Positions 1-6,268 of a stretch of 6,905 nucleotides of DNA are shown here, piece after piece. The notes beneath the pieces were generated by a model, which did no database searches, was not told the DNA's origin, and was given only the letters and a program-made list of their open reading frames with translations. Origin of the DNA: Candidatus Cloacimonadota bacterium (GTDB lineage: Bacteria > Cloacimonadota > Cloacimonadia > JGIOTU-2 > B8-G9). The position numbers were made by a program, and so were the translations under genes. The stretch spans positions 1 to 6,905 of the forward strand of contig QMNM01000078.1 in assembly GCA_003647765.1 (NCBI GenBank), given 5' to 3'. How positions within the stretch are numbered: the first letter of the stretch is position 1; the number at the start of each line of letters is the position of its first letter.

Positions 1-48
1 AACGCTTACGAAACTGCTTTGGAGAGATTCCCAGAGAAGTTTATTTAA
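1..48 (+). CDS. C-terminal end of an upstream gene (partial)
   Basis: The first 48 bases read as an open frame ending in TAA at 46-48, giving the last 15 residues (NAYETALERFPEKFI) of a protein that begins outside the window. The stop overlaps the AAGGA ribosome binding site of the next gene, the same close packing seen in the genes that follow. This suggests one transcription unit entering from the left. Nothing can be said about function. Confidence 0.55.
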   Translation, partial: NAYETALERFPEKFI

Positions 49-56
49 GGATAACT

Positions 57-671
57 ATGAATATCAAAAGTAATAAAGAAAACAAATCAATGTGGAATAT
101 GGATGTTGGCAAGTGGATCGGTAGTCTTATTACGGATAAAAAATATTGGCTAACATTAATAGTATGGGGTATTTTTGCCACATTTGTATTGGCACTTGAA
201 GGAACTTGGGGTATCCAAGCAGCCGTTTCTATTATAGCGATTTCAGTTCATTTAGTTGTAGTCGGTATTGCTGAAAATAATCGTGTTGATAGTGAAAGAT
301 GGAATGATAGAAAAGCCGACATAAGTATATTTTCACTCTTTGGTATTCCACTGATTATAGTGGCTTTAAGTTATTGGAATGTGACTGCACCAATGTATCA
401 AGATTATAAGACTGCCGATAGAATTGACAGAGTTCTCCCAATGAATGAAGTTAATTTATTCTACAATGACGAAAATAGTATATTTGTCTTATTTGTTGAA
501 GGACAAAAACAACCACTAATCATTGATAAAGGTGGTCATTCTGACACATACAACAGGCTTAAAGCTGATTTCTTGGACAAAAAAATTCAAGTAATTAAGA
601 AAGAGACAAAGGGTTGGACAGATACTAACTCTTCAATTCAATATCACTTAGATGATAGTATATTTGATTAA
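57..671 (+). CDS. Three-TM membrane protein of unknown function
   Basis: This 204-aa protein is not recognised. It has a polar N-terminus of about 28 residues, then three hydrophobic segments at roughly residues 30-47, 52-72 and 89-107. A soluble C-terminal half of about 95 residues follows, mixed in charge and containing a probable beta strand (SIFVLFVEG, about 141-149). The start is supported by AAGGA at 47-51, just upstream of the ATG. It is the first complete gene of a + strand run: the 69-aa gene starts 9 nt after it and the RNA-repair gene 2 nt after that, so all three are probably cotranscribed. The layout (three TMs, then a soluble tail of about 100 residues) resembles that of the gene at 3663, but I see no convincing sequence similarity. 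A membrane location is well supported; the role is unknown. Confidence 0.85.
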   Translation: MNIKSNKENKSMWNMDVGKWIGSLITDKKYWLTLIVWGIFATFVLALEGTWGIQAAVSIIAISVHLVVVGIAENNRVDSERWNDRKADISIFSLFGIPLIIVALSYWNVTAPMYQDYKTADRIDRVLPMNEVNLFYNDENSIFVLFVEGQKQPLIIDKGGHSDTYNRLKADFLDKKIQVIKKETKGWTDTNSSIQYHLDDSIFD

Positions 672-680
672 GGGACAATC

Positions 681-890
681 ATGGAAAGAAAGTTATATAC
701 AGCTATTAAATCAGCTAAAGTCAATAAGGTTCAAGAGTTTATCAAGGGTAATGAATATTTATTTCTTGATAGTTGGTGTGAAGATAGAGATAATAGAGAT
801 GTCACCGTTTTTGACTTCAAGGGTGAACAGAATAATCAAGTCCGCATAACAGAAGCGAGACTCAAAACAATATTTGGATTAAAGGGATAA
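681..890 (+). CDS. Small hypothetical protein, 69 aa
   Basis: A 69-aa soluble protein that I do not recognise. The N-terminal 25 residues are lysine-rich and probably helical (ERKLYTAIKSAKVNKVQEF). An acidic patch (CEDRDNRD) and a short beta-like stretch (VTVFDFKG) follow. The start is chosen because AAGGG at 670-674 sits at a normal distance from ATG 681. An ORF in another frame (652-849) overlaps the same DNA but overlaps its neighbour and lacks a ribosome binding site. The end of this gene supplies the AAAGGG binding site for the large RNA-repair gene, which begins 2 nt after the stop, so translation of the two may be coupled. Confidence 0.75.
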   Translation: MERKLYTAIKSAKVNKVQEFIKGNEYLFLDSWCEDRDNRDVTVFDFKGEQNNQVRITEARLKTIFGLKG

Positions 891-892
891 TC

Positions 893-3613
893 ATGGAAAA
901 AACACAAATCAAAACACAAGTTCATACAATAATTATGTTAGTTGGACCAAGCGGTTCAGGAAAAACTACTTTCGCCAAAAAAGTATTAATCCCAGGACTA
1001 AGTGCTAATTATGACAAGAGCAAGAACTTTGCACCAAATATTCAGTATATTAGTTCTGATGATATTCGTAAAAATATACTTGGTGTAAATTACGATAAGA
1101 TGGATGAGATTATGACTGAGAGTTCAACTCAAGCCTTTGAAATCCTTTTCACACAATTAAGAGCAGTTACATCATACCCTATTAATGCGGAATATGTGAT
1201 TCTTGATACTACTGGTTTATCTGAAAAGTTTAGAACTGATGTTCTTGCTATTGCAGACGATAACAACTATAATGTTGATGTAGTCGTATTTGATTACAAG
1301 AAAGTTGATGAATACCAAAAGAATTTTGTTGCAGATAGCCTCAAAAGTAGAGAAACTGGTGGTAGATTGATTGCTAAACACATGAAGCGATTAAAGACTG
1401 AGGTTCTTAAAACTCTTAGAAAAGGGACTTACCAAAACATATTCAAGATTAAAAGTAAAGACTTTGTAACAGAAGAAACTACTAATGTATACAATATTGA
1501 TTCTGGTGAATATGAAATGGTTGATAATCTTGTTTCAAACTATGATGTTTTTGCTTGGGATTATGAGAAGTACATGGATAGAATTCTTCCATCTAAATAT
1601 GAGTGGATTACAATTGGTGATGTTCATGGTTGTATTAATGAACTTAAAGAGCTTATCAAGAAATATGGCTTTGAAATCAATGAAAATGATGAGATTATTG
1701 ACACTGAAAAATCTAAAGGTTTTGGTCTAATTTTAGCTGGTGACATCGTTGATAAGTCAAGTAATGAGGACATTGAAAAAACCATTCGCTTTGTCCATAA
1801 AAATATGGGTGTTCTGGGCGACAGATTACAGCTTGTTCTTGGTAATCATGAGGAAATGGTGTGGAAGTGGACGACTAACCACAAAGACCTTGAACATACT
1901 GTTGAAAGACTTGACCAAAAAGTTAAGTATTACAACACTGCTATCCTTCTTGAAGAAAAAGAAGATGTTAGAGAACTGTTCTTAGAAATCTTTGCTAAGA
2001 TGAAGGGATGGGTTAAAACAATTGGAACTGATAGAAAAAGTTTCATTGTTACTCATGCACCTTGTGAAGTTAAATTTCTTGAAAAAATGGATGGAAGATC
2101 ACTACATAAACAATATAAGTGTGCGAGTAGAAGCAAAAACAAAGATATGAGTAATGACCAACTTACACCATACCTTAAAGATGAAGCTGTGAAGAACCAA
2201 CCCGTTCATATTTTTGGACACATGGGACAAAACTCTGTTAGAACCTTTAAGAACAAGGTTTGTATTGATGCTGGTTGTGTGTATGGAGCTAAACTTGTTG
2301 GTTATAGTGTTGGGTTTGGGAAACCATATATTCAAACTGTAAGTCAAATCAATGGAACTGAAGCAAGAAATGATTTCAGCAACAACCTATTTGAAGAAGT
2401 AGCTGCTGAGAGAAAAGCTGTTGATATTGATAGCCTTAGTGAGTTCAATCAAAAAAGATTAACTTACCTTATGAACAACGGTATTGGTTATGTTGGTGGA
2501 ACAATTTCTCCAGCTCCAAAAGATGAAGAAAGTGGTGAGTTTGAATCACTTAAATCTGGGCTTGATTACTACAAAGGTAAAGTAAAGTCTGTTGTTTTAC
2601 AACCTAAGTATATGGGTTCAAGAGCACAGATGTATCTTAATAGAGATATTGAGAAGTGTTATGCTACAAGTAGAAATGGTTATAAGATTAAAGAAGATTT
2701 AAGTGCTGTATTTGCAGACCAACTTAAAGAACAAGAAACTCTTATGGGAGCATTCAATATCCAAGAGTTAGTTATGGATGGAGAGCTTATGCCGTGGGCA
2801 TCACTTGGTCGTGGTTTAATTGAAAGCCAGTTTGTTGTTATTGACAAAGCAATCAAGAGTGAAATTGATTTCCTTAGAGAGAATGGTTTTGACGAAGCAT
2901 TTATGGACTTAGAAAAGTCTTACCTTGAAAGTGGTTTTGCAGAAGACAGAAATACTCTGAACAAGAAAGACCTAAACAAAAAGTATGGTCATTCTTACCA
3001 AAACTTTAAGAACATTAAATGGGAACTTGATAGATTTCAGTCAAATGCCACACACGAAGCTGCTTGGAGCATTTACCATGAACAAGTAGAGATTTATGGT
3101 GCTGAGGGTGATACTCATTACAAGCCGTTTAGAATACTTAAAGCGACTAAAACAGAAGAACATGGTGGAGAAATCTTCAAAGTTGATATGAATGCAGCAA
3201 TGCAGTTTGGTTCAATCAATAATGATAGTGTATGTGTTATTGACTTTGAGGACGAGAACTATTTAGAGTTCGCTCAGAAGTGGTATGATGAGATTACTAA
3301 TGTTGGTGAAATGGAAGGTTGTGTTATTAAACCAAATGATGCAGAGAACCCAGAGTGGTTAGCACCATTTATGAAGGTTAGAAATCCAAACTACCTACAT
3401 ATCATTTATGGATATGATATGAACTTCCCTAAAAAGTTCACAAAACTATTCAACCAAAAGAATATTGGTAGAAAGCTTAGAGCTTCTATCGCAGAGTATA
3501 AACTTGGTGAGCAAATGCTTGATATGAAAGTTGGAAGCCCAGAAATCAAACAAGTTCTTGCGAATATGATGTTTGAAAATGAAAAGGAAGTGGGTATTGA
3601 CCCACGCCTTTAA
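893..3613 (+). CDS. pnkp: Trifunctional RNA repair enzyme: polynucleotide kinase, phosphatase and ligase (bacterial Pnkp type)
   Basis: This 906-aa enzyme should heal and seal broken RNA: phosphorylate 5'-OH ends, remove 2',3'-phosphates and rejoin strands. The domain order matches bacterial Pnkp (Clostridium thermocellum enzyme about 870 aa). Kinase, about 10-190: P-loop GPSGSGKT at 18-25 (K24), SSDDIR at 54-59 with the D-x-x-R pair D56/R59, DTTG at 105-108, and an arginine-rich lid around R153-R166. Binuclear metallophosphatase, about 238-480: GDVHG (D243, H245), GDIVD (D284), GNHE (N318, H319), THAP (H388), GHMG (H443) and D459, with spacing very like the known enzyme. Ligase, about 520-900: nucleotidyl lysine K572 in KYMGSRA, MDGE at 628-631, EGCVIKP from E808 (K813), and MKVRN with K828. 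All catalytic signatures look intact. The start has AAAGGG at 881-886. The usual partner methyltransferase Hen1 is absent here. T4 uses separate, unrelated proteins for this job. Substrates are likely tRNAs cut by host nucleases (inference). Confidence 0.93.
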   Translation: MEKTQIKTQVHTIIMLVGPSGSGKTTFAKKVLIPGLSANYDKSKNFAPNIQYISSDDIRKNILGVNYDKMDEIMTESSTQAFEILFTQLRAVTSYPINAEYVILDTTGLSEKFRTDVLAIADDNNYNVDVVVFDYKKVDEYQKNFVADSLKSRETGGRLIAKHMKRLKTEVLKTLRKGTYQNIFKIKSKDFVTEETTNVYNIDSGEYEMVDNLVSNYDVFAWDYEKYMDRILPSKYEWITIGDVHGCINELKELIKKYGFEINENDEIIDTEKSKGFGLILAGDIVDKSSNEDIEKTIRFVHKNMGVLGDRLQLVLGNHEEMVWKWTTNHKDLEHTVERLDQKVKYYNTAILLEEKEDVRELFLEIFAKMKGWVKTIGTDRKSFIVTHAPCEVKFLEKMDGRSLHKQYKCASRSKNKDMSNDQLTPYLKDEAVKNQPVHIFGHMGQNSVRTFKNKVCIDAGCVYGAKLVGYSVGFGKPYIQTVSQINGTEARNDFSNNLFEEVAAERKAVDIDSLSEFNQKRLTYLMNNGIGYVGGTISPAPKDEESGEFESLKSGLDYYKGKVKSVVLQPKYMGSRAQMYLNRDIEKCYATSRNGYKIKEDLSAVFADQLKEQETLMGAFNIQELVMDGELMPWASLGRGLIESQFVVIDKAIKSEIDFLRENGFDEAFMDLEKSYLESGFAEDRNTLNKKDLNKKYGHSYQNFKNIKWELDRFQSNATHEAAWSIYHEQVEIYGAEGDTHYKPFRILKATKTEEHGGEIFKVDMNAAMQFGSINNDSVCVIDFEDENYLEFAQKWYDEITNVGEMEGCVIKPNDAENPEWLAPFMKVRNPNYLHIIYGYDMNFPKKFTKLFNQKNIGRKLRASIAEYKLGEQMLDMKVGSPEIKQVLANMMFENEKEVGIDPRL

Positions 3614-4729: not shown

Positions 4730-4816
4730 GCGAGTGTGGTGAAATTGGTATACACGCTACCTTGAGGGGGTAGTGAGAGAAATCTCGTGTCGGTTCAAAT
4801 CCGACCATTCGCACCA
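4730..4816 (+). tRNA. tRNA-Leu, anticodon GAG
   Basis: A complete class II tRNA of 87 nt including the encoded CCA. The acceptor stem GCGAGTG/CATTCGC has seven pairs (one G-U), with discriminator A at 4813 and CCA at 4814-4816. The D-loop contains ATTGGTATAC. The anticodon stem CTACC/GGTAG (4757-4761/4769-4773) holds loop TTGAGGG, so the anticodon is GAG at 4764-4766, reading CUU and CUC leucine codons. The long variable arm is GAGA-GAAA-TCTC, and the T-arm GTCGG/CCGAC encloses TTCAAAT. All stems pair without mismatch, so it looks functional. It ends 2 nt before the stop of a convergent - strand gene. Confidence 0.96.
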
Positions 4817-4818
4817 AA

Positions 4819-5133
4819 TTAAAATTGATTATATGGATTAGCTCTATATGAATTAGCCTGTTGATACTTATTAGGTTCAATAGTAACACCTGACTTACTC
4901 CCATCAGATATTTTTGGAGAATAAAAATCTTTCTTACATTCATCAAACATTGATTTATATTGCACGGCAATTACCAAGTATCTTGACGACATTTTCTTAT
5001 TTTTATCAGCCTTATTAACATATTTTTCATACTGCACTTTATAACTCACACATTCTTTAGGATCTTTTCTATTAGAAACATCATATCCAAATAATATACT
5101 TGCCATTAGTAATATTAATATTATTTTGTGCAT
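4819..5133 (-). CDS. Secreted small protein with Sec-type signal peptide, 104 aa
   Basis: The N-terminus (MHKIILILLMASILFG) is a classic signal peptide, probably cleaved before YDVSN at residue 17. There is no lipobox cysteine, so it should be a soluble periplasmic or extracellular protein rather than a lipoprotein. The mature part is lysine- and tyrosine-rich with two cysteines, C28 and C66, that could form a disulfide, and a C-terminal tail rich in N, Q, S and Y. The ATG overlaps the end of the upstream gene by 13 nt and has TAAGGA at suitable spacing, so the two are translated as a pair. The pair's order recalls inner- and outer-membrane spanins, but the missing lipobox argues against that. 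Its stop lies 2 nt from the tRNA-Leu. Function unknown. Confidence 0.78.
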   Translation of the reverse strand: MHKIILILLMASILFGYDVSNRKDPKECVSYKVQYEKYVNKADKNKKMSSRYLVIAVQYKSMFDECKKDFYSPKISDGSKSGVTIEPNKYQQANSYRANPYNQF

Positions 5134-5498
5134 TGGTCATTCCTTACTACTACTCGTGCTATTGGCTGCCATGGTGCATTTTTCCCTATCTTCCCATATT
5201 TAATTTCCAAGTTATATAGAGTCGTGTAATTTTCTGTATAATCGTCTCGTTCGGCATCGGACACAATGCACGGATTTCTTTCCGCTTTTCTAACAATATC
5301 TTTCATTATCATCATCTGAGTTATTTCTATCTGTGTAGTATTCTCAGCTATGGATGTTAATACATTTGAATACCATGTATAACCAGTAATAGAACTCGTT
5401 GCAAGTAGTGCTACAAGCCCATAAATGGCTACAACAGTATTACTCATTTTATTGAACTTTTCAATAAATGACGGTGTTTCTTCTTTTTCTTTTGGCAT
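5121..5498 (-). CDS. Single-TM membrane protein with extracytoplasmic cysteine pair, 125 aa
   Basis: A charged N-terminus of about 20 residues (MPKEKEETPSFIEKFNKMSN) precedes one hydrophobic segment at about 20-42. A C-terminal domain of some 80 residues follows. The acidic and basic N-terminus would stay in the cytoplasm and the C-terminal domain would lie outside. That domain has a helix with polar repeats (about 46-75) and two cysteines, C77 and C123, near its ends, suggesting a disulfide-closed unit. The start is fixed by AAAGGAG on the - strand (plus 5504-5510). It overlaps the secreted protein gene by 13 nt. A role in lysis, in superinfection exclusion or at the cell surface is possible; I do not recognise the family. 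Confidence 0.8.
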   Translation of the reverse strand: MPKEKEETPSFIEKFNKMSNTVVAIYGLVALLATSSITGYTWYSNVLTSIAENTTQIEITQMMIMKDIVRKAERNPCIVSDAERDDYTENYTTLYNLEIKYGKIGKNAPWQPIARVVVRNDQCTK

Positions 5499-5653: not shown

Positions 5654-6268
5654 ATGAAAAAACAAAAAATACTAATCATCGTTGATTACCAAAATGACTT
5701 CGTTGACCCTAGAGGCGCACTTACAGTTCCAAATGCCAATGCAATTGTTAATAATATTCAAACTAAAATAGATAGTGATGAATATACATCTACAATTTTT
5801 ACATTTGATACTCACACCAAAAAAGTTTATGAGACTTCTGATGAATCTAAAATATTTCCAATTCACTGCGAATTTAATACTAAGGGTTGGAATTTCTTCA
5901 AAATCAAACCACAATCTATTAAATGGACTAAATTCATAAAGGGTAGAAAAGAACCTTTTGAAATGTATCAATCCGATAATGAATATTTTTTCACTAAAGA
6001 TGTATTTAATATTTGGGATGGTAATACTACTTACCCTAAATGGTTTGAGGGAACTTTCCCTAAAGATGAATATGAGATTGATATTGTTGGTGTTGCCACT
6101 AACTATTGTGTCTTTATGAATGTTATGGGTATGGTAGAAAGAGGTTATACTGTAAATATAATTCAAGATTGTGTTGAAGGTATTAAAGCCTTTCCAGATG
6201 GTTCGATTGATGAGAGCTATGAAAAAAACATTACTGTTATGAAAAACAGAGGTGTAAACTTTATCTAA
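5654..6268 (+). CDS. Nicotinamidase-like cysteine hydrolase (isochorismatase superfamily)
   Basis: A 204-aa protein with the full catalytic layout of nicotinamidase (PncA), which converts nicotinamide to nicotinate for NAD salvage through the Preiss-Handler route. The catalytic triad is D11 (VDYQNDF), K115 (FTKDVFNIWDGN) and C152 (GVATNYCV). The metal-site pattern D52-x-H54 (FDTH), an acidic residue at E60 or E64, and H71 (FPIHC) closely follows characterised nicotinamidases. Isochorismatases without the metal site lack this D-x-H/H pattern, so nicotinamidase is favoured. Other amidases of the superfamily cannot be excluded. Length is typical. The start has AAGGA at 5642-5646. It is first in an operon with two small genes, behind a promoter and two inverted repeats, so it may be regulated. 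A long antisense ORF over the same DNA is a shadow. Confidence 0.85.
   Translation: MKKQKILIIVDYQNDFVDPRGALTVPNANAIVNNIQTKIDSDEYTSTIFTFDTHTKKVYETSDESKIFPIHCEFNTKGWNFFKIKPQSIKWTKFIKGRKEPFEMYQSDNEYFFTKDVFNIWDGNTTYPKWFEGTFPKDEYEIDIVGVATNYCVFMNVMGMVERGYTVNIIQDCVEGIKAFPDGSIDESYEKNITVMKNRGVNFI

Follow-up and report, generated by a model that had tools for sequence, protein, structure and literature searches.

Which enzyme does a 906-residue open reading frame encode on a short contig filed with a bacterial genome, does the locus belong to a phage, and which RNAs would its product mend? The window, i.e. the whole stretch of DNA analysed here, is a complete contig of 6,905 bases from a bacterial bin of 1.97 Mb. 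A preliminary description had proposed a phage-type locus carrying a complete, bacterial Pnkp-style kinase-phosphatase-ligase, with a possible role in the repair of tRNAs cut by host anticodon nucleases. The closest relative is a full-length protein, 61% identical to that of the window, encoded at locus L002 of a 224,467-base viral contig (G098). The features of the window, with their counterparts in this relative, are as follows.

1..48, + strand: C-terminal end of a gene (NAYETALERFPEKFI, then stop), the same gene as L002:7092-7382, which lies between Hen1 and the membrane-protein gene
57..671, + strand: putative membrane protein of 204 aa; as upstream neighbour it is conserved, with 41% identity to its G098 counterpart
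681..890, + strand: small ORF of 69 aa without a family match, probably in the same transcription unit by its spacing
893..3613, + strand: predicted RNA end-healing and sealing enzyme, single chain of 906 aa (kinase, calcineurin-type phosphatase, ligase), ATG start
893..1561, + strand: 5'-OH polynucleotide kinase domain, aa 1-223, with K24, D56 and R59 (AAA_33; 4mde/4gp6; Z 21)
1562..2380, + strand: calcineurin-type phosphatase domain, aa 224-496, with D243, H245, D284, N318, H388, H443 and D459 (4j6o; Z 26.8)
2396..3610, + strand: RNA ligase domain, aa 502-906, with the adenylated lysine K572 and E631, E808, K813 and K828 (bit scores, Z and tree, see below)
4730..4816, + strand: tRNA-Leu with anticodon GAG and an encoded CCA end; the G098 tRNA array, too, includes a Leu-GAG tRNA
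5121..5498, - strand: small protein of 125 aa, 55% identical to its syntenic counterpart L002:11284-11664
5654..6268, + strand: isochorismatase of the nicotinamidase type, for NAD+ salvage; the G098 counterpart is 60% identical

Domains and active sites of the window protein

Pfam searches place the PNKP_ligase family at residues 531-887 of the window protein (E = 1.4e-30, 107 bits, cut-off 28) and the AAA_33 kinase family at residues 14-134 (E = 5.6e-11). Sequence matches to solved structures relate the kinase part to the kinase of Clostridium thermocellum Pnkp (CthPnkp; 4mde/4gp6, E = 5e-6) and the phosphatase part to the CthPnkp phosphatase (4j6o, E = 1.5e-12), while the ligase part matches Rnl (4xrp; 7.7e-44, 153.6 bits) better than the CthPnkp ligase (3ty9; 6e-15, 58 bits). 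In an AlphaFold2 model (mean pLDDT 83.5 and pTM 0.54, with uncertain relative placement of the domains), VIA aligns residues 3-223 with the CthPnkp kinase (Z 21.0), 224-496 with the CthPnkp phosphatase (Z 26.8), 514-906 with Rnl (Z 37.3) and 502-906 with CthPnkp-C as complexed with Hen1-N (Z 33.2). In the last of these, 357 residues of the window ligase match Pnkp-C of the Pnkp-C/Hen1-N complex, including the region that contacts Hen1-N.

The catalytic residues lie where these folds predict them. K24 sits in the P-loop of the kinase and D56/R59 in its ISSDxxR motif; in the phosphatase, D243/H245 belong to GDVHGC, D284 to GDxVDK, N318/H319 to GNHE, H388 to THA, H443 to GH and D459 to IDxG; in the ligase, K572 lies in KYMGSR and is accompanied by E631, E808, K813 and K828. 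An alignment of 17 sequences, 28-62% identical to the window protein, shows no variation at K24, R59, D243, H245, D284, N318, H319, H443, D459, K572, E631, E808, K813 and K828, and next to none at D56 and H388. The E-values together with conservation at such identities exclude chance as a source of the domain and active-site matches; these, like the phage context and the family's partnership with Hen1 treated below, are results of computation.

The preliminary description had claimed three intact active sites in one 906-residue chain, and had proposed as checks a family HMM search and a structural comparison with the CthPnkp domains. Pfam, solved-structure and VIA matches bear the claim out, with every residue that it named on the right motif. 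The ligase, for which a failure to align with the Pnkp fold had been put forward as refuting evidence, lies on the Pnkp/Rnl ligase fold over residues 502-906 (Z 33-37). Judged by its sequence, the window protein is fully equipped for its part in Hen1-linked repair, an activity that is predicted here.

Phage origin of the locus

The window and L002 have a common gene order, in which an upstream membrane protein is followed by the repair gene, antisense small genes and a nicotinamidase, and this synteny reaches the very edge of the contig, its first 48 bases included. Since those bases are the end of an L002-type gene, the contig is cut inside the cassette. G098 encodes rIIA, a T4-type topoisomerase II, a DnaB helicase and 22 tRNAs, as well as a phrog_850 RNA-binding protein and a match to the phrog_388 nucleotidyltransferase family, and SmpB and Thg1 lie beside its repair genes. 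By gene content and gene order we take the window locus to be a fragment of a large tailed phage.

The ligase domain was found in none of the other 123 genomes among the 124 searched in the bin's phylum, and the window protein in none of 97 relatives. Together with the gene order common to a 224-kb phage contig and a window without any recognisable chromosomal gene (its small ORFs have no family matches), this leads us to reject a bacterial chromosome with an RNA repair gene of the bin's own; such an origin retains only a very slight probability, even though the contig was binned in a 1.97-Mb bacterial genome and homologues of ~40% identity are chromosomal in Bacillales. The phage-type assignment of the preliminary description is thereby upheld, and the chromosomal context that it had named as contrary evidence did not materialise, the order of genes being that of a viral contig with rIIA, topoisomerase and DnaB. 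The 6.9-kb window holds no phage structural gene, a search of the bin for the rIIA of G098 gave no match and is uninformative, and further relatives sought through the nicotinamidase and membrane-protein genes led to the same 224-kb contig only, or to none.

Several neighbouring features are recorded here in their own right. The tRNA-Leu (GAG) of the window stands alone, with the repair gene on one side and antisense small genes on the other; its counterpart in the related phage lies within a large array elsewhere. Thg1, SmpB and an RlmN-like radical SAM protein are found at L002:15241-16380, 2406-2855 and 12440-13336, respectively, and Thg1, which adds nucleotides to tRNA in the 3'-5' direction, recurs beside the cassette in another phage (L021:5576-6391) and on a Paenibacillus plasmid (L133:9152-9862). 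The nicotinamidase-type gene (window 5654-6268; L002:11805-12443) is joined in the relative by look-alikes, as read from sequence alone, of NAD synthetase and nicotinate phosphoribosyltransferase (L002:13341-14294 and G098:114641-116002); together these may supply a pathway of NAD+ salvage able to offset defences that deplete NAD. The phages XacN1 and RAS14 likewise encode a nicotin(am)ate phosphoribosyltransferase ~5 kb from Hen1/Rnl. Two T4-type late promoters (TATAAATA) occur in the window, and this reading was dropped, as G098 is not enriched in them (47 and 29 against ~52 expected per strand).

Lineage, Hen1 partner and spread of the family

The label 'bacterial Pnkp-style' holds for the three-domain chain and its intact active sites, and gives way on lineage, the ligase being of the Rnl type. 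Against TIGR04075 the window protein scores 190.1 bits and the Bacillales homologues 187-193 bits, short of the equivalog cut-off of 750 bits. A branch with 100% SH-aLRT support parts the window ligase from that of CthPnkp, and in quick trees of both proteins the lineage's ligase and Hen1 fall with their Capnocytophaga counterparts, Rnl and Hen1, and with the stand-alone Rnl of phages, apart from the classical sequences; since these trees are rooted on the classical group, the split counts as a supported bipartition and falls short of a proven clade. These data place the window protein in a second Pnkp/Hen1 lineage of hybrid make-up, with kinase, phosphatase and domain order of the CthPnkp kind and a ligase and Hen1 of the C. 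gingivalis (Cgi) type. RefSeq names the Bacillales proteins examined 'metallophosphoesterase' or 'AAA family ATPase', and 'class I SAM-dependent methyltransferase' is the one other label given to the lineage in the records examined.

With the classical Pnkp-Hen1 systems of C. thermocellum and Anabaena (TIGR04075/TIGR04074), the window protein has in common the one-chain domain order, the calcineurin-type phosphatase and Hen1 as operon partner, but identity is only ~22-23%, the score of 190 bits lies below the 750-bit cut-off, and a long, fully supported branch separates the ligase and Hen1 of the two groups. The Pnkp1-Rnl-Hen1 system of Capnocytophaga gingivalis (PMC4411300; PDB 4xrp/4xru) provides the best match to the window ligase (Rnl, 153.6 bits, Z 37.3), and CgiHen1 matches the phage Hen1 of L002 over its full length, whereas its kinase and ligase are separate proteins and its phosphatase is of the T4 (HAD) type, in contrast to the complete fusion and calcineurin-type phosphatase of the window. 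Phages XacN1, RAS14, RYC and sm033 likewise carry a ligase of the same family adjoining Hen1, yet none has the single-chain calcineurin-type form: XacN1 and RAS14 encode separate Rnl and Hen1 (the 'PNKP' of XacN1, ORF197, is a ligase only), and RYC and sm033 encode Rnl beside a fused Hen1-kinase protein, with a HAD-type match in sm033. This further architecture, a Hen1-polynucleotide kinase fusion beside a separate Rnl, was recorded at L004:9122-11275, L005:9146-11326 and L024:8312-10453 (the last by Hen1 and length only), and the fusion is labelled only polynucleotide kinase in RYC and sm033.

With T4 Pnkp and Rnl1 the window protein would share the role of a phage answer to tRNA cleavage by end healing and sealing, and the difference lies in the HAD phosphatase, separate ligase and lack of Hen1 methylation of T4, the window having neither a HAD phosphatase nor a separate Rnl1. 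On T4 the preliminary description requires correction, since it spoke of a separate kinase plus HAD phosphatase and of an unrelated ligase: in T4, kinase and HAD phosphatase are joined in a single polypeptide, Pnkp, and Rnl1 is a member of the nucleotidyltransferase superfamily that also includes the window ligase. T4 repair has been described as the work of two proteins, Pnkp and Rnl1 (PMC4411300). Among the papers searched that treat Hen1, Pnkp and phages jointly, the pair turned up in a phage in the XacN1 paper alone (PMC5852040), and calcineurin-like RNA-repair phosphatases have been noted in a few jumbo phages with Hen1 unmentioned (PMC7824862). Neither the one-chain enzyme paired with Hen1 across many large phages nor the Bacillales lineage was found in the literature searched, which did not include the Burroughs and Aravind 2016 survey of RNA repair.

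Hen1, the RNA 2'-O-methyltransferase, is the constant partner of the family in the viral and Bacillales copies examined. All 20 viral records with a relative gave a Hen1_N match and, among the best 80 of 169 bacterial relatives, Hen1 lies directly upstream in all 80 Bacillales loci. The L002 Hen1 scores 218 bits against Hen1_N and matches CgiHen1 of the Pnkp1-Rnl-Hen1 crystal structure (4xrp_C) end to end (4.3e-39, aa 3-413), and the ExxEH metal motif is present in every phage Hen1 found near the ligase. Eleven of the 19 fused phage loci have the Hen1 stop and the Pnkp start abutting or overlapping within ~10 nt; in L002, L009, L021, L023 and L026 the two genes are not directly adjacent. Hen1 is absent from the 6.9-kb contig, and a Hen1_N search elsewhere in the bin, run without a positive control genome though positive in all viral records, found none. 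In L002, Hen1 ends ~1.8 kb before Pnkp, so the Hen1 of the window would sit just off the contig's left end, and we infer from this closest relative that the window's own phage probably encodes it. The preliminary description missed Hen1 because the contig starts just downstream of its place in the closest phage.

A profile search of viral contigs recovered 20 loci on contigs of 38-504 kb, 19 of them with the full three-domain form (~16 distinct sequences), the records being mostly fragments without a completeness estimate; five (G100, G111, G115, G116 and G117) hold a strong terminase match. Among bacterial genomes, 169 relatives were found, the best 80 of which are all from Bacillales, chiefly Paenibacillaceae and Bacillaceae, at ~40% identity and full length, so that at least 80 Bacillales genomes hold the lineage. 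As WYL-like regulators adjoin ~29 of 82 bacterial copies and none of 24 phage copies, the phage form appears to have left bacterial regulation behind. A quick tree suggests, but does not show, repeated transfer between phages and Bacillales, since the AU test fails to reject a single origin of the phage copies (p 0.069).

Three observations concern individual members. Bacterial copies often have a pair of WYL-domain regulators and a nucleotidyltransferase, possibly RlaP, as neighbours (L077, L128, L134 and ~30 other Bacillota loci), in what is apparently a damage-induced RNA repair cassette, unrecognised by the NCBI Pnkp model at its cut-off. The Pnkp gene of L016 is interrupted in its phosphatase part (7729-8009) by ~240 bases with stops, its halves remaining in the same frame; no Rfam intron matches there, and an insertion, a misassembly or an intron of unrecognised type might each explain it. 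The terminase of G115, the record of L024, has 8 TAG codons in frame and no other stops (23073-24200), which suggests that this phage reads TAG as an amino acid.

Proposed function and alternative readings

We consider it probable that the phage-borne single-chain kinase-phosphatase-ligase, with a phage Hen1, repairs RNA cut by metal-independent ribonucleases, likely mainly tRNAs cleaved in the anticodon loop. The phosphatase would remove the 2',3'-cyclic phosphate, the kinase would phosphorylate the 5'-OH, Hen1 (encoded off the contig's left end) would methylate the terminal 2'-OH, and the ligase would seal, leaving a methylated junction resistant to a second cut; the main substrates would likely be tRNAs cut by host abortive-infection nucleases. 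Both the succession of steps and the methylation of the junction are taken, by analogy, from work on Pnkp-Hen1 and Pnkp1-Rnl-Hen1 (PMC4411300). The phage home, the neighbouring SmpB, Thg1 and tRNAs, and the WYL-like regulators beside ~29 of 82 bacterial copies support a role against anticodon nucleases, and from these we infer tRNA repair and anti-defence as roles of the window protein. Evenly poised, in our judgement, is the claim that large phages hold in this lineage a third architecture (CthPnkp-like kinase and phosphatase, Cgi-type ligase and Hen1) for complete repair-with-immunity, where the 2'-O-methyl on the rescued tRNA cut site blocks re-cutting by host anticodon nucleases, and that Bacillales widely carry this lineage as an RNA repair cassette without annotation.

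Repair by the window protein alone, after the manner of T4 Pnkp/Rnl1 and with neither Hen1 nor an immunised junction, would fit the absence of Hen1 from window and bin, and the five phage loci with non-adjacent genes indicate that the two can separate. We hold it to be unlikely given Hen1 in all 20 viral records with relatives, the syntenic sister L002 included, and given that the CthPnkp ligase, whose Pnkp-C the window ligase matches over 357 residues, is inactive until Hen1-N binds (PMC4411300). Hardly more probable is a main job in processing phage or host RNA ends (phage tRNA maturation, intron-like events, RNA maintenance in a long infection) instead of counter-defence, for which the 22 tRNAs of G098, the nearby Thg1 and SmpB, and the chromosomal presence of the same enzyme pair in many Bacillales might be adduced. 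To our knowledge, however, tRNA maturation in most bacteria and phages proceeds without such repair enzymes, and the reaction set suits the ends left by metal-independent ribotoxins. The WYL regulators at ~29 of 82 bacterial loci also argue against it, as WYL domains are tied to defence regulation (PMC4012209). The chromosomal Bacillales copies mean that the system is not solely a phage counter-defence tool; for the phage copies, repair together with Hen1 remains our preferred reading.

What Hen1-linked RNA repair acts on in vivo, and to what end, is given as unknown in the principal structural study (PMC4411300), and complete systems in many large phages offer a setting, phage versus host anticodon nuclease, in which that purpose is directly testable. 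The analysis also uncovers a Bacillales lineage that scores far below the cut-off of the NCBI family model and bears only generic names in the records examined. The near-constant presence of Hen1 among the viral relatives suggests that such large viruses can both repair and immunise the tRNAs that bacteria cut to stop infection; if true, methyl immunisation of repaired tRNA would join the phage counter-defences, beyond the strategy of T4.
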